Of a stretch of 5,072 nucleotides of DNA, positions 1-5,072 are shown piece after piece. Both the position numbers and the translations under genes were made by a program. Position 1 is the stretch's first letter; the number at the start of each line of letters is the position of its first letter. Under the pieces are notes generated by a model. That model worked only from the letters and a program-made list of their open reading frames with translations. It was not told where the DNA came from and did not search any database. The DNA is from an uncultured Bacteroidales bacterium (GTDB lineage: Bacteria > Bacteroidota > Bacteroidia > Bacteroidales > F082): positions 1 through 5,072 of the forward strand of contig CAMKAR010000176.1 in the NCBI GenBank assembly GCA_946410535.1, given 5' to 3'.

Positions 1-310
1 CTTCCTCGATGTCGATGCCGCTCTCAAACTCCATCGAGATGACCGAAGTGTTCTCGCGCGAAGTGGAGGAGAGGTGCTTCAGGTCGGGTACGGCATTGAG
101 CGTGTTTTCCAACGTCTTGGAAATGTTGGTTTCAATGTCCTCGGCGCTGGCTCCAGGGTAGGAAGTCAGGACCATGATGAAGTTGGTCTCCATGTCGGGC
201 AATTGGTTGATGGAGAGGTTCATCAGGGAATAAATGCCGAAGATGGCGATGGCGACGAAAACAAGGGCCGTCGTCACCGGATTATTGACTGCTGTTCTTT
301 GTAAACTCAT
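1..310 (-). CDS. RND-family efflux permease, N-terminal fragment
   Basis: Only the first 103 codons are present; the gene runs off the left edge. The product is the inner-membrane, proton-driven pump of a tripartite efflux system (HAE1/AcrB-like branch). The translation starts MSLQRTAVNNPVTTAL, followed by a hydrophobic first transmembrane segment at about residues 13-31. Next comes the start of the periplasmic porter domain with the family hallmark SYPGASAEDIE and an NTLNAVPDLKHLSSTSREN stretch, matching AcrB-type proteins that read YPGAS-(x)-(x)-VE and 'l..v..l..i.S.S'. The ATG at 308-310 is the natural start because the conserved N-terminus begins there, and it has a short A-rich leader. 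It is the third gene of the operon, 99 bp after the adaptor stop, with a repeat-hairpin between them. The substrate cannot be told from this fragment. The family call is secure; drug versus other export is open. Confidence 0.93.
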   Translation of the reverse strand, partial: MSLQRTAVNNPVTTALVFVAIAIFGIYSLMNLSINQLPDMETNFIMVLTSYPGASAEDIETNISKTLENTLNAVPDLKHLSSTSRENTSVISMEFESGIDIEE

Positions 311-409: not shown

Positions 410-1441
410 TTATTGCACGGTAACATTCACTCCGTCCTTCAAGCGGATCTGCCCCTCGGTGACAATCTTGTCGCCCTCGTTGATGCCACTGATGATTTCA
501 TACTTGTCGCCAAGGCGCTTACCGACTTCCACGAGCGTGTATTTCACCGTGTTGTCGGGTTGCAGCACAAAGATAAAGTGCTCGCCCGAGCCTTGTTGCT
601 TGACCACGGCAACGTCGGGCACGACCACATGGTGGTTGGTGCCGAAGTTGGCCGTCACGCGGGCAAACATGCCCGGACGCAGTCTTTGGTCAGCATTTTG
701 GCAGACGACTTCAACGGGGAAGGTGTGGGTCGTCGCGCTGACGGTGGGGTAGATGAGGTTCACCTTGCCGGTGAAGTTCTCGCCTGGGTACGACTCCACG
801 GTGATGTCGAAAGCCATGTCCTTGCTGATGTGGGTGAAAAGGCTCTCTGACACGTTGATGAGCATCTTGACGGGCTGGATTTGCTGCACGACGAAGATGG
901 GCATTTGCATACTGTACATGTCGCCAGCATCGTAGTTGCGGGCGGTCACCACGCCGTTGATGGGACTTCTCAGATAGGTGTTCTCGGCCAGGTTCTGATA
1001 GGTTTTTTTCGTGACGTTCAGGGCGAGACGGGCCATGTCGTAGTCCGACTGGGCCACGGCGCCGATGTTGTAAAGCTCGGTGAGACGTGCCAGCTCGGTC
1101 GAGTCGTTGACGTACTGCATCCTTGTCTTGGCTAAGTTGACGTCGTCCATCGTGGCCAAAATCTGGCCTTTGCGCACTTGCTGTCCCACCTCAGCCTTGA
1201 TGCTGACGATGCGGCCCGCCGTTTGCGAGACAATGTTGTTCGTCGCGAAAGGCTCAATGTTGGAGGTGAACGTGTTGGTGATTTCGACGTCTTCGGCTTG
1301 TGCCGTCACCACGCTGACCACAGGAGCGGCTTGCGCTTGCTGCTGTTCGGTCGAGGTGGTGGTGTTGCCGTCTTTCGAGCCACAAGCCGTCATCAAGGCG
1401 GCAGCGGCTAAAGTGATGATACTGAGTTTGAGGTATTTCAT
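410..1441 (-). CDS. RND efflux periplasmic adaptor (membrane-fusion) lipoprotein
   Basis: The 343-residue product bridges the RND pump and the outer-membrane channel. It starts MKYLKLSIITLAAAALMTAC, a type II signal peptide whose lipobox MTAC places the lipidated cysteine at residue 20. A low-complexity T/Q/A linker (about 26-40) precedes the mature fold. The two lipoyl half-motifs are visible at about 81-98 (EVGQQVRKGQILATMD) and 157-174 (LRSPINGVVTARNYDAGD). They flank a short helical hairpin (about 100-155). A beta-barrel domain (about 190-268, ending LRPGMFARVTANF) and a membrane-proximal domain (about 270-343, with INEGDKIVTEGQIRLKDG) follow. Length is usual for HlyD/AcrA-type adaptors. 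The frame stays open upstream to 1711, but that extension overlaps the outer-membrane gene and lacks a signal peptide, so the ATG at 1439-1441 is chosen. It lies between the outer-membrane factor and permease genes. The family call is secure; the substrate is unknown. Confidence 0.96.
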   Translation of the reverse strand: MKYLKLSIITLAAAALMTACGSKDGNTTTSTEQQQAQAAPVVSVVTAQAEDVEITNTFTSNIEPFATNNIVSQTAGRIVSIKAEVGQQVRKGQILATMDDVNLAKTRMQYVNDSTELARLTELYNIGAVAQSDYDMARLALNVTKKTYQNLAENTYLRSPINGVVTARNYDAGDMYSMQMPIFVVQQIQPVKMLINVSESLFTHISKDMAFDITVESYPGENFTGKVNLIYPTVSATTHTFPVEVVCQNADQRLRPGMFARVTANFGTNHHVVVPDVAVVKQQGSGEHFIFVLQPDNTVKYTLVEVGKRLGDKYEIISGINEGDKIVTEGQIRLKDGVNVTVQ

Positions 1442-1471: not shown

Positions 1472-1534
1472 GCTTTTGGCTCTTGGCCGGTCGCTAATTG
1501 CCAGTAGCCAGAGGCCAGTAGCCAATGGCTTATT
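1472..1534. repeat. Heptanucleotide repeat array between outer-membrane factor and adaptor genes
   Basis: Nine consecutive 7-nt units each begin GCC or GCT on the plus strand, starting at 1472, 1479, 1486, 1493, 1500, 1507, 1514, 1521 and 1528. Two units are exactly GCCAGTA (1500 and 1514). The last unit overlaps the stop codon of the outer-membrane factor (1530-1532), so on the coding strand the array starts at the end of that gene and runs until about 30 nt before the adaptor ATG. It has the same period and placement as the array at 321-404 but a different sequence. Confidence 0.8.
1476..1525 (-). other. Inverted repeat (RNA hairpin) within the 1472-1534 heptamer array
   Basis: Arms at 1476-1488 and 1513-1525 pair as 6 bp (TTGGCT with AGCCAA) plus 5 bp (TGGCC with GGCCA), separated by a 2x2 internal loop, around a 24-nt loop. 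The stem is GC-rich. It lies immediately after the outer-membrane factor stop codon in the transcript. No U tract follows, so a simple terminator is unlikely. Confidence 0.5.
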
Positions 1535-2879
1535 CCTTCCCAACCAATTCATCCAACGAGGCCTTGGCCACCATGAAGTTGTAAACCGCTTGGGCCTGTG
1601 TGAGTTGCGCCTGTTGCAAAGCCAATTGCGCGTCGTTGAGTTCCACGAGGGTTGCCTTGCCCACTTCATACATCTTTTCGGAGATGTCGTAGCTCTTCTG
1701 TGCAATCTCAACCGTGGCGTTGGCGGCTTGGTAGTTCTTGATGCAGAGTGCCATTTGGTCGTTGTAGTTGCGGATGCCGATGCGCAGGTTGCGTTCGGCG
1801 TCTTCGCGTTGCAGGGCGAGCATGTTGCGGTTCACCTTGCTTTGCTTGATGGCGTTGTGTTTTTGGAAGCCATCGAAGACGGGGATGCTGAGGCTGACGG
1901 CGGCGGTGGAGGAGGGGAACCAACGCAGTTCGCTGTCGCCCATCGCGCTGTAGTTGTAGTTGATGCTCGCCGCAAGCGTGGGCAGGTATTGCTTTTTCTG
2001 CATCCTGATGGTCGATTCGAGCATACGGTCTTGGATGGCCAATTGCAGCAGCGAGCTGTTGTTGCTGAGGTCGTCTTCTTGGACGTAGGGCGTGAGCATC
2101 TCTTCCGTGTAGTCGTTCAGGTCGCCCACCACTTCCACTTCCGTGTTGAGGTCGATGCCCATGACGGCTTTCAGCTGCCATGTGGCGAGCAAAACCGAGT
2201 TCTCGGCGCTCGACACGTTGGGTTCGGCGTTCATCATCGTCACTTGCGAGCGCAGGCGTTCCACCTCCGAGGCCTTGCCCACGTTGAAGCGTTGCTCAGT
2301 CTTCTCGTAGTTCTTTTGTGCGTTCTCGTAGACTGAGGTCACCACGTCGAGCGACTTCTGGGCGAGCAAAACGGCATAGAAGGCCTGTTTCACTTGCTTC
2401 ACCATGGCGATTTTCGACGAGCGGGCTTGCTCGACGGCCAGCTCCACGTCCATGCCCGATAGTTTCAGGCTTTCCCAAAGCTGGGCGTTCACCAAGGGCA
2501 TGCTTGCCGTGGCCGAGGTGCTGATGTTGTTGTCGCGGCCCACCTTGATTTCCATGGCCTGTCCGCCCATGTCCATCACCATCACCTGCTTCTGCAAGGT
2601 GCGTTGGTACGACCCGTTGATGCTGACGTTGGGATAAAGAGCGGCATAGCTGCCTTTTCTCGCATAGCCCGTCTTTTCGACGGTCATGTCGGCTATTTTG
2701 ATGGTGTTGCTTTCGGAGAGGGCAATCTCAAGGGCTTGGTCGAGCGTGAGCTGCAAAGCCCCTGGGTTCTGAGGTTCCTGTGCCTGTCGAAGGGCCGGTC
2801 CGTCGGACTGCCCAAATGAAAACAATGGCGTGATTGCCAATGTTGTTATTGTCAAAATGTTGAAAATCAGTTTTTTCAT
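1530..2879 (-). CDS. TolC-family outer-membrane efflux protein
   Basis: The 449-residue product is the outer-membrane channel and periplasmic tunnel of the tripartite pump. A Sec signal peptide is clear (MKKLIFNILTITTLAITPLFSFG, cleavage near residues 23-24). Two outer-membrane-efflux (OEP) repeats follow. The first has LTLDQALEIALSES at about 44-57, YPNVSINGSY and a long helical run rich in Q, K and E. The second begins near residue 260 and contains the paired element YLPTLAASINYNYS, then SLSIPVFDGFQKHNAIKQSK and YEVGKATLVELNDAQLALQQAQ near the C-terminus. Length is normal for the family. Residues about 25-41, encoded by an apparent dispersed repeat, lie between the signal peptide and the first OEP motif. 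It is the first gene of the operon, with a -7 element about 42 bp upstream of the ATG. The family call is secure; the exported compound is unknown. Confidence 0.96.
   Translation of the reverse strand: MKKLIFNILTITTLAITPLFSFGQSDGPALRQAQEPQNPGALQLTLDQALEIALSESNTIKIADMTVEKTGYARKGSYAALYPNVSINGSYQRTLQKQVMVMDMGGQAMEIKVGRDNNISTSATASMPLVNAQLWESLKLSGMDVELAVEQARSSKIAMVKQVKQAFYAVLLAQKSLDVVTSVYENAQKNYEKTEQRFNVGKASEVERLRSQVTMMNAEPNVSSAENSVLLATWQLKAVMGIDLNTEVEVVGDLNDYTEEMLTPYVQEDDLSNNSSLLQLAIQDRMLESTIRMQKKQYLPTLAASINYNYSAMGDSELRWFPSSTAAVSLSIPVFDGFQKHNAIKQSKVNRNMLALQREDAERNLRIGIRNYNDQMALCIKNYQAANATVEIAQKSYDISEKMYEVGKATLVELNDAQLALQQAQLTQAQAVYNFMVAKASLDELVGKE
2774..2808. repeat. Palindromic dispersed-repeat-like element inside the outer-membrane factor gene
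   Basis: The plus strand reads GTTCCTGTGCCTGTCGAAGG at 2774-2793, close to the widely dispersed bacterial repeat core CCTGAGCCTGTCGAAGG that I recall from many genomes. Next to it lies a perfect inverted repeat, GTCCG (2798-2802) and CGGAC (2804-2808). In the gene's frame it encodes residues about 25-36, including LRQAQEP, a peptide typical of translated copies of that repeat. It sits directly after the signal peptide, where homologues usually go straight into the first OEP motif. Copy number cannot be checked from one window. Confidence 0.6.
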
Positions 2880-2920: not shown

Positions 2921-2928
2921 CAAAAGTA
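2921..2928 (-). promoter_or_regulatory. Promoter -7 element of the efflux operon
   Basis: On the minus strand this reads TACTTTTG followed by CA, a full match to the Bacteroidota -7 consensus TAnnTTTG. The start of transcription would fall near 2916, giving a leader of about 37 nt before the outer-membrane factor ATG. No TTTG -33 element is visible 17-23 bp upstream, which suggests that an activator is needed. Confidence 0.6.
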
Positions 2929-2958
2929 GTGATTCTAATGAAGTTAGATACGGATTTT

Positions 2959-2988
2959 TCAACGAAATATTTCATGTAATCAACGAAA
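2959..2988 (-). promoter_or_regulatory. Direct-repeat pair, candidate LytTR-regulator binding site (efflux promoter)
   Basis: On the minus strand TTTCGTTGA occurs twice (2988-2980 and 2967-2959), identical over 9 bp, with a 12-bp gap and hence a 21-bp period. Known LytTR regulators such as AgrA bind two direct 9-bp repeats with a 12-13 bp spacer and a core GTT; each repeat here contains CGTT. The proximal copy ends 30 bp upstream of the -7 element, a usual activator position. That the neighbouring LytTR protein is the binder is inference. Confidence 0.6.
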
Positions 2989-3050
2989 ATCTTTCCACTT
3001 CATTTTTGGTGCTGACGGCATCGAAAATAAGCTTGCCCCGTCCATGTTCG

Positions 3051-3080
3051 CTTTATTGAAGATTTGTTTCTTTTCATTGA
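3051..3080 (+). promoter_or_regulatory. Direct-repeat pair, candidate LytTR-regulator binding site (kinase promoter)
   Basis: CTTTATTGA (3051-3059) and TTTCATTGA (3072-3080) repeat with a 21-bp period, matching at 7 of 9 positions, and both are followed by A. The proximal copy differs from the efflux-side repeat TTTCGTTGA at one base. The pair points toward the kinase gene and ends 29 bp upstream of its -7 element, nearly the same geometry as the efflux side. Autoregulation is inferred. The distal copy is the weaker half-site. Confidence 0.5.
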
Positions 3081-3109
3081 AAACCAAACTGCATTTGAAT
3101 GATTCGCCT

Positions 3110-3117
3110 TATCTTTG
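3110..3117 (+). promoter_or_regulatory. Promoter -7 element of the two-component operon
   Basis: TATCTTTG, followed by CAG, matches the Bacteroidota consensus TAnnTTTG. Only 4 nt separate it from the kinase ATG at 3122, so transcription would start at or next to the start codon. No TTTG lies at the usual -33 spacing; the TTTG at 3094-3097 is too close. Confidence 0.6.
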
Positions 3118-3121
3118 CAGC

Positions 3122-4210
3122 ATGAAAATCAAGGATATGAAACGGCCTAACCTGCAAAGCCTGCCGACGGCCAACCTCGACCTGCTGGAACGCCTCTACA
3201 GGAACGGTGTCATCTGGATTGCGCTGTTTGTCATTTTCTTCACAGTGCATTCCAACGGCAACTACTTCTTCAGGGCGCTCAGTTCGCTGTGTTTCGTCGG
3301 AATGGAGGTCTTGTTGGTCACCTTTATTAATAAGGTGCTGATTGAGCATTACCTGAAACGCAACAAGGTGGTGTTGCTCATCCTGTTGTCCATCCTTATC
3401 CTCCCCCTTTGGGCTGCGGCTTCTTCCACCATCGACATCGTGCTCCTGTACTTTTTTACCAAGCGGCCTTTCGCCGAGATTTTCAATTTCGGGGTCAGCT
3501 TCGTGGTTTTCATGGTGCGCCTCATCTGGTTCATCGCTACCTTTGCCATCGTGTTGATTTTCTACTATCAACGCAAGGAAAACGAGGAGAAAATCATCGG
3601 CGACCAACTGAAGAGCGAGAAACTCGACATGGAGCTGCGCTATCTCAAGTCGCAAATCAACCCGCATTTCCTTTTCAATGCCCTAAATAACATCTATTCA
3701 ATGGTTTATACGCACGACGACAACGCTGCCGACGGTGTGTTGAAGCTGTCGGAGATGTTGCGCTACGTCCTCGTCGACTGTCAGGCCGAGATGATTCCGT
3801 TAAGCAAGGAAATCAAGTATATCGACAATTTCATCGACTTCCAGATGATGCGCATGGGCGGTCATCGCGATGTTGTTTTCACCAAAGACGTGGAGAAAGA
3901 GGACTTCCTTATTGCTCCGATGCTCTTGCAGCCCATCATCGAGAACTGCTTCAAATACAGCCGTTTGGAGACGCATCCTGATGGCTATGTTCATGTCAGC
4001 GTGAGACAGACGGGCAACAGGATTTGCTTCGAGGCCGAAAACACGGTGGCCGAAAACGCGCTCCCGATTGCAGGCAACGGAGGGGCAAAGTCGGGCATCG
4101 GGCTGAAGAACGTGCAGCAACGCCTGATGTTGCATTATGGTGAAGATTATGTGTTTGATATTGAGCAAAATAAAGATAAAGGAACCTATAAAGTCAAGAT
4201 CGAACTATGA
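3122..4210 (+). CDS. LytS/YehU-type sensor histidine kinase
   Basis: The 362-residue membrane kinase would autophosphorylate and pass phosphate to the LytTR regulator encoded next. Four hydrophobic segments are visible, at about residues 29-43, 53-74, 82-100 and 122-148. The loops between them are short and there is no large periplasmic domain, so any signal is probably sensed in or near the membrane. A short charged helix (about 150-175) leads to the His_kinase motif QINPHFLFNALNNIYS, with the phosphoacceptor H182. The ATPase part shows the N box around PIIENCFKYS (N275; Y279 where histidine is common) and the G box GIGLKNVQQRL (325-335). The frame is open back to 3044, but the promoter -7 element lies inside that extension, so the ATG at 3122 is preferred; 3137 is a possible alternative. 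The stop overlaps the next start (ATGA). The ligand is unknown. Confidence 0.95.
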   Translation: MKIKDMKRPNLQSLPTANLDLLERLYRNGVIWIALFVIFFTVHSNGNYFFRALSSLCFVGMEVLLVTFINKVLIEHYLKRNKVVLLILLSILILPLWAAASSTIDIVLLYFFTKRPFAEIFNFGVSFVVFMVRLIWFIATFAIVLIFYYQRKENEEKIIGDQLKSEKLDMELRYLKSQINPHFLFNALNNIYSMVYTHDDNAADGVLKLSEMLRYVLVDCQAEMIPLSKEIKYIDNFIDFQMMRMGGHRDVVFTKDVEKEDFLIAPMLLQPIIENCFKYSRLETHPDGYVHVSVRQTGNRICFEAENTVAENALPIAGNGGAKSGIGLKNVQQRLMLHYGEDYVFDIEQNKDKGTYKVKIEL

Positions 4211-4926
4211 ATGAGAAGTATAACGTGATCATCGTCGACGATGAATATTTGGCCCAAAAGCTGCTTCAAGACTATGTCTCAAAGGTGGAGTCGCTGCAAT
4301 TGGTGGCCACTTGCTCCAATGCTTTCGAGGCCATGGAAGCCTTGAAGAACAATTCGGTCGACATCATGCTTTTGGATATCCAAATGCCTGATTTGACAGG
4401 TCTTGAGCTGGTGAAGAGCTTGGAGAAGAAGCCCGCCGTCATCTTCACAACGGCCTATTCGGAGTATGCCGTCGATGCGTTCAACCTCGCCGTTTCCGAC
4501 TACCTGCTGAAGCCTTTCGACTTCCCGCGTTTCTTCCAGGCCATCAACAAGGCCATCGGCAACGTGCCTTCGAGGTCGGAAAACGCGCCGAAGCCCGCAG
4601 CCGACACCATCAGCAAGTCGAACGATTTCATCACGGTGAAAGCCGACTATAAGCTTTACAAAATCAACTACGACGACCTTCTTTTCATCGAAGGCCAGCA
4701 CGAATACGTCACCTTCCACACCACGCAGCGGCGCATCACGGCCCTTTTCGCCTTGAAAGACCTGGAGGAAATCCTTCCGAAGGACAAGTTTGTGCGCGTC
4801 CACAAGTCGTATATCGTCTCGTTCAAGCATATCCAGGACTTGGACAAGAGCGATGTCACCGTGGCTGGCAACAAGGTTCCGGTTGGGGCCAGCTATCGCG
4901 ACGAGTTGTTGGCGCGTTTGCAATGA
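4207..4926 (+). CDS. LytTR-family response regulator
   Basis: This 239-residue cytoplasmic transcription factor has an N-terminal receiver domain (about 1-118) and a C-terminal LytTR DNA-binding domain (about 138-237). All receiver residues are in place: acidic pair D11/D12, phosphoacceptor D57 in MLLDIQMP, switch T82 in FTTAY and K102 in LLKPF. The linker (about 119-138) is short and rich in P, S and A. The LytTR domain shows FITVKADYKLYKINYDDLLFIEG-type strands and the hallmark FVRVHKSYIVSFKHI at about 195-209. It overlaps the kinase gene by 4 bp, so the two are translationally coupled and almost certainly partners. Paired repeats of the kind this family binds occur upstream of both divergent promoters, which suggests that it controls the efflux operon and its own operon. 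The gene looks intact. Confidence 0.96.
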   Translation: MNEKYNVIIVDDEYLAQKLLQDYVSKVESLQLVATCSNAFEAMEALKNNSVDIMLLDIQMPDLTGLELVKSLEKKPAVIFTTAYSEYAVDAFNLAVSDYLLKPFDFPRFFQAINKAIGNVPSRSENAPKPAADTISKSNDFITVKADYKLYKINYDDLLFIEGQHEYVTFHTTQRRITALFALKDLEEILPKDKFVRVHKSYIVSFKHIQDLDKSDVTVAGNKVPVGASYRDELLARLQ

Positions 4927-5007: not shown

Positions 5008-5072
5008 ATGGGAAAATTTGAAATCACAAGCAGGAAGAACGGCGAGTTCCAGTTCAACCTGAAGGCCACCAA
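5008..5072 (+). CDS. YegP-family (DUF1508) protein, N-terminal fragment
   Basis: Only 21 full codons are present before the window ends. The translation MGKFEITSRKNGEFQFNLKAT matches the start of the DUF1508 repeat, where family members read roughly KFEI-K-NGEF-F-LKA. YegP proteins are small, usually with one or two such repeats, and have no established biochemical function. The ATG follows an A-rich leader and its own promoter. Nothing ties it functionally to the two-component genes upstream. Confidence 0.85.
   Translation, partial: MGKFEITSRKNGEFQFNLKAT

Follow-up and report, generated by a model that had tools for sequence, protein, structure and literature searches.

Paired direct repeats as predicted operators of a kinase–LytTR system at an RND efflux divergon in Bacteroidales

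We analyzed a 5,072-nucleotide stretch of DNA from an uncultured Bacteroidales bacterium (the window), which forms a divergon with efflux genes running leftward and genes for a histidine kinase and a LytTR regulator running rightward. Both divergent promoters carry two half-sites resembling TTTCRTTGAA at a period of 21 bp, and each pair is directed at its own gene. These repeats are real, are kept in many relatives, and are best explained as predicted operators of the kinase–LytTR system, which would control the RND pump as well as itself. We assign a probability of roughly 0.8 to the reading that both pairs serve as operators for the LytTR regulator of this divergon and that this regulator activates the efflux operon and its own operon; we infer binding, its dependence on phosphorylation and activation from the evidence laid out below.

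Genes of the divergon and its two repeat pairs

The efflux genes lie on the minus strand and begin with a TolC-family outer membrane channel, gene 1 of the operon (1530..2879; PF02321), followed by an RND efflux periplasmic adaptor (413..1441; PF16576, with TIGR01730 above cut-off) and the start of an RND pump that is cut by the window edge (2..310; PF00873). Channel, adaptor and pump in one gene run make up an RND tripartite efflux operon, and the entire pump was read in locus L001. On the plus strand are a membrane histidine kinase (3122..4210; PF06580, 88.4 bits), 99% identical to the kinase of the Bacteroidales MAG UBA4243, and a response regulator with a receiver and a LytTR domain (4207..4926; PF00072, 81.5 bits; PF04397, 71.2 bits; both above cut-off in the profile search), which is the candidate binder of the repeats. 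The LytTR domain matched AgrA structures (E 3e-5) and, weakly, ComE. Across 12 aligned kinases H182, N186 and an ENxFK stretch were retained, corresponding to the phospho-acceptor His and the N box. The true start of the kinase may be the ATG at 3137 rather than 3122, since the transcript is expected to start almost at 3122 and the alignment with relatives begins at MKR/MKK.

The structural model of the kinase (mean pLDDT 73, pTM 0.46, built on 12 rows) is a membrane helix bundle with short loops ahead of the kinase core and no evident periplasmic domain. Its structural matches were kinase cores such as GanS, and among the 50 matches listed none was informative on the signal. The first-pass annotation had the kinase sensing an envelope or efflux-related signal, a proposal that found no support here; a signal located in or at the membrane is plausible, given the modeled helix bundle with its short loops before the kinase core.

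Several smaller features were seen among these genes. Within the TolC gene, at 2783-2796, an CCTGTCGAAGGGCC stretch lies in frame close to the N-terminus, with similar stretches in L004, L023 and L027; we take it to resemble short Bacteroidales repeat elements. Short tandem-like runs (TTAGGAGTTAGGAGTT and GGCCAGTAGCC-type) lie between the efflux genes at 317-362 and at about 1497-1525. In many relatives a DUF1508 (YegP-like) gene stands 3' of the regulator (window 5008-5072; L001:7842-8222). It has a TATATTTG box of its own, no repeats were seen at it, and in L021 this gene is directly upstream of the kinase. In L005, L009, L011, L017 and L032, the minus strand of the inter-promoter stretch translates, by eye, into what looks like the conserved end of a peptide (similar to DKIxxLVEMSVDLE); no start codon was seen, and the stretch is perhaps a gene remnant.

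On the efflux side, all on the minus strand, the distal half-site TTTCGTTGAT occupies 2979..2988, a call made from the sequence and from distal column counts in relatives, and the proximal half-site TTTCGTTGAA occupies 2958..2967. The -7 box of the efflux promoter, TACTTTTG at 2921..2928, is called from its sequence and its spacing in relatives; it is a TAnnTTTG box that follows the 9-mer by 30 bp and the 10-mer by 29. On the kinase side, on the plus strand, the distal half-site as read in the window, CTTTATTGAA at 3051..3060, is a weaker match, two positions off consensus; the proximal half-site TTTCATTGAA lies at 3072..3081, and the TAnnTTTG box TATCTTTG at 3110..3117 follows the 9-mer by 29 bp and the 10-mer by 28. 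The four half-sites, the 21-bp period, the orientation and the box distances had been claimed earlier, and all proved exact to the base. Written as TTTC-RTT-GAAA, the half-site can be read as palindromic arms flanking an asymmetric core.

Such repeats could be chance repeats of AT-rich promoters, or promoter elements mistaken for repeats, and the 9-mer alone is indeed not over-represented in the window: TTTCRTTGA with at most two mismatches had 44 matches compared with 35.5 expected, and 17 of 200 shuffles reached 44. Since the lone 9-mer is this common, any test must rest on pairing, period, orientation and box distance.

Conservation of pairing, period and distance

A single scan yielded an ortholog set of 32 loci, with kinases 62-99% identical; in their gene maps TolC adjoins the kinase in most and other neighbours do so in the remainder. 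The efflux-type pair TTCRTTGAA-N12-TTCRTTGA, allowing at most one mismatch, had 52 matches in 32 genomes compared with 8 for the reversed pattern, and 15 of the 16 exact pairs were upstream of TolC, the other one (L041) lying inside an unrelated reading frame. When repeats were counted unguided in 27 non-redundant TolC promoters, 17 had period 21, with 8 at the next-best period and a shuffle maximum of 6. For 26 kinase promoters, a set that includes linked loci whose region also contains the efflux pair, the corresponding figures were 12, 6 and 6. In the 16 kinase promoters that do not adjoin a TolC promoter, the count was 4 for period 21 compared with 5 for period 12, and because this count has no clear period, the kinase-side case rests on guided tests.

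We searched 41 Bacteroidales genomes for a pair-plus-box pattern, consisting of both half-site cores and the box with a repeat-to-box gap of 27-30 bp. This pattern had 41 matches, in 33 of the 41 genomes, and its reversed version had none; 36 of the 41 matches were at cognate promoters, 21 of them kinase promoters (40 tested) and 15 TolC promoters (39 tested). All 21 kinase matches were 62 bases long, placing the box exactly 28 bp after TTGAA, and the 15 efflux matches had gaps of 28 or 29 bp, although 27-30 was permitted. Wherever the pair was present, the end of TTTCRTTGAA lay mostly 28 or 29 bp ahead of the -7 box, and the proximal half-site was near-invariant in the 22 scorable TolC promoters and the 19 scorable kinase promoters of the window clade.

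In a held-out test, the word TTTCRTTGAA, taken from the window clade only, was scored in promoters outside that clade, with kinases about 32-60% identical, at a threshold of 16/20. At period 21 the threshold was reached by 13 of 22 kinase promoters (best other period, 5; maximum of 200 shuffles, 2) and by 7 of 9 TolC promoters (best other period, 3; maximum of 200 shuffles, 2), counts which, as in every set used here, include related loci and are not independent events.

These results bear directly on chance as an explanation. A single half-site plus box also occurs before unrelated genes: when the 55 matches in 32 genomes (none for the reversed pattern) were hand-sorted by coordinates, 18 were at kinase promoters, 20 at efflux promoters and 17 elsewhere, and this observation, like the frequency of the lone 9-mer and the unguided count in unlinked kinase promoters, speaks for chance. 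It is opposed by the excess of 41 pair-plus-box matches over none reversed, with 36 at cognate promoters, by the prominence of period 21 in held-out clades, and by a spacing that stays constant while the flanking sequence varies. Chance is thus scarcely credible, and we take it as refuted by the pair-plus-box counts and the held-out test.

The operators predicted for the LytTR regulator are nevertheless not universal. The strict pair plus box was missed by 16 of 31 window-clade kinase promoters (window excluded) and by 16 of 30 window-clade TolC promoters; some of these were near misses, for example, ATTCGTTGAA in L002 and L003. Seven compact loci (L004, L007, L008, L020, L023, L024 and L029) had a single array, directed at the efflux genes, and no kinase-facing pair. 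In the L009 group the distal efflux half-site was degraded or lost, no clear kinase pair was found at the kinase promoter of L014, L015, L021 or L022, and the repeats of G025 were weak only. G021 gave neither a TolC match nor an operator and G031 gave no TolC match, in MAGs that may be incomplete. The first-pass annotation had proposed that the LytTR regulator next door has a common operator at the two promoters, and had named conserved blocks in orthologous divergent regions as the check. The proposal passed this check, with repeats, period, orientation and promoter distance kept in many of these regions, including those of unlinked operons, although the kinase-side misses show that the operator is not universal. 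The efflux operator is the stronger case, and autoregulation is well supported, though not universal.

In the compact loci, 28 bp separate the end of the array from the efflux box, and 17-18 or 27 bp separate it from the kinase box. These distances may share a helical phase, in which case one array may serve both divergent promoters.

Unlinked operons, distant relatives and further candidate targets

An efflux-type pair was also found at TolC genes lying away from the kinase, on different contigs in G022, kilobases apart in G006, G014, G026 and G030, and with one gene between in G015. Contigs C11 and C23 of G119 carry the kinase gene (60% identical) and the TolC gene, respectively; a pair is present at both promoters, where TTTTGTTGAA replaces the window's TTTCRTTGAA as the proximal half-site. 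A parallel change at two unlinked promoters is a prediction of a shared binder, seen here in one case.

A different, unlinked regulator might be that binder and control both operons. The predicted operators rest on sequence, and G022 keeps the efflux pair while its kinase promoter is without a clear pair, both of which would suit such a regulator; yet the pair sits at the LytTR operon itself in many relatives, distant ones included, and the repeat design is the one printed for LytTR proteins in the accessible part of PMC6193735. We regard a separate regulator as very unlikely, and name the LytTR regulator as the probable binder because of gene linkage and because the repeats are kept at its own promoter in many relatives.

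In a distant clade of seven genomes, with kinases 39-49% identical, the strict kinase-side pair plus box was present in 4 of 7. A TrkH-type gene precedes the kinase wherever the upstream gene was read, and Pfam confirmed TrkH in both loci tested. TolC lies within ~5 kb of the kinase, divergent and on the same contig, in G090, G106, G117, G121, G122 and G124; in the two mapped loci (L170 and L171) it is divergent to TrkH, which stands between TolC and the kinase. Among the seven TolC promoters of this clade, five (L159, L162-L165) had three TTGA half-sites at exact 21-bp steps, L161 had two and L160 one. In the six promoters with an array, 38-40 bp separate the end of the last half-site from the box (a relaxed match in L161 and L162), roughly one helical turn more than in the window clade. 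In L173 and L174 (kinase 39-40% identical), TTGA occurs three times on the TolC side at intervals of exactly 21 bp, where the search for a TAnnTTTG box gave no clear match, and the kinase side has a pair 28 bp ahead of TATTTTTG. We rejected the view that this system was tied to TrkH long ago and to efflux only recently, because the distant clade has TolC near the kinase and repeats at its TolC promoters.

Other possible members of the regulon were sought among the non-cognate matches. Seven of the 17 single-half-site matches were one near-identical promoter across seven genomes; the downstream sequence was read in four of these (L064, L068, L095 and L100), and in L064 it encodes a 370-aa membrane protein with an AraC-type domain. 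Three others precede YidC-like genes (Pfam on L073 alone). These single-half-site promoters were not counted as regulon members, since those read have, by eye, no second half-site at 21 bp. For the five non-cognate pair-plus-box matches, the downstream sequence was read in all. One of them, L119 (G090:C19:16169-16230), has the pair and the box, 28 bp apart, in front of a sodium/hydrogen exchanger that matches TrkA_C weakly, and this is a possible third target in the TrkH-type clade. The others precede a small protein with no Pfam match in G118, a TonB-receptor-type protein in G022 and a short protein with no Pfam match in G025; no reading frame was found at the match in G015. Three of the five have a 27-bp repeat-to-box gap, which is absent from the cognate matches.

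The TrkH neighbour in one clade and the array before the exchanger hint at ion or membrane stress. A wider reading, which we offer as tentative and rather doubtful, joins these observations to a half-site with palindromic arms and an asymmetric core and to a compact-locus array serving both promoters. On this reading the system would be an ancient module of the Bacteroidales, with operators that shift by full turns of the helix. In one clade a single membrane sensor, responding to ionic or membrane stress, would be coupled to efflux, to K+ uptake through TrkH and perhaps to an ion/proton exchanger.

Promoter design and likeness to known LytTR systems

We read the promoters by the Bacteroides -33/-7 rule and the repeats against the general LytTR consensus. 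PMC6193735 applies the same promoter rule. Between the end of the proximal half-site and the -7 box there are 28-29 bp, which puts the half-site just upstream of the expected -33 element. A -33 TTG was found in none of the 28 efflux promoters scored (of 40; L157 is among those without it), compared with 11 of the 22 kinase promoters scored (of 41), with a distance of exactly 19 bp in ten; the window kinase promoter lacks the TTG. This difference suggests that the pump promoter needs an activator and that the kinase promoter of many relatives has some basal activity. AgrA-activated promoters are described as having poor core spacing in passages of PMC4227749.

The mechanism we propose is as follows. 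The membrane kinase would phosphorylate the LytTR regulator, which would bind each half-site pair head to tail, two helical turns apart on one DNA face. With its downstream half-site 28-29 bp before the -7 box, the bound regulator would assist RNA polymerase, activating the TolC–adaptor–RND operon, where strong dependence is expected given the lack of a -33 TTG, and the kinase–regulator operon, where activation would amount to positive feedback.

Alternatively, the repeats could be LytTR operators used for repression, with the regulator holding the efflux operon and its own operon off until it is released by a signal. AgrA represses at one promoter, according to PMC4227749, and those kinase promoters that have a -33 TTG (11 of 22 scored) could fire without an activator. 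The sites, however, do not overlap the core promoter but precede it at an almost constant distance, and efflux promoters without a -33 TTG (0 of 28) suit activation, which makes repression unlikely. Activation of both operons, as the first-pass annotation had it, is made likely by where the sites lie and by these efflux promoters, an argument drawn from sequence features throughout.

The gene pair has the parts of a LytTR two-component system, namely a receiver–LytTR regulator, a PF06580 kinase with the conserved His and N box, and direct repeats of about 9 bp with an 11-13 bp spacer upstream of both promoters (period 21). The receiver and LytTR domains are shared with AgrA- and ComE-type regulators, and AgrA, in the text available, likewise uses paired direct repeats just upstream of promoters and serves two promoters, one of its own operon. 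Unlike in those systems, the promoters here are Bacteroidales promoters with a TAnnTTTG box, the half-site TTTCRTTGAA has A/T-rich palindromic arms, and the target is an RND efflux operon. BtsSR and LytSR resemble the present pair in combining a His_kinase (PF06580) with a receiver–LytTR regulator, but differ in target and operator. The regulator scored below the curated NCBIfam cut-offs for BtsR (143.6 vs 246) and LytR (124.2 vs 375) and is an equivalog of neither, and the kinase had no match among NCBIfam models.

LytTR repeats of the same size, close upstream of -35, are described in the accessible part of PMC6193735. There, the LRS of Streptococcus mutans (HdrRM/BrsRM) has 9-bp repeats with a 12-bp spacer just upstream of -35 and positive autoregulation. 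The circuit described here resembles an LRS operon in its repeats but is not an LRS, since its regulator contains a receiver domain and is paired with a PF06580 histidine kinase, whereas the LRS partner is an inhibitory membrane protein. The same part of that paper predicts operators for two Bacteroides LRS-like operons, with 11-bp repeats, an 11-bp spacer and TGTA-19 bp-TATCTTTG; this is the nearest case that we found in print, and its repeat sequence differs from the one here. Titles and abstract openings in the literature yielded no experimentally tested operator of such a kind. Flavobacterium lines with LytTR mutations alongside TolC changes appear in the excerpt of PMC10197871 and were not counted as evidence.

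Together, these results provide a concrete candidate operator for a Bacteroidales kinase–LytTR pair, tied to an RND efflux operon. What may be new to a specialist are the triple arrays, the one-turn shift and the array that both promoters of a compact locus may share. The repeat rule and box distance allow regulon members to be searched for in uncultured genomes, and the one-helical-turn shift between clades can serve as a natural experiment on the contact between a LytTR activator and the Bacteroidota polymerase.
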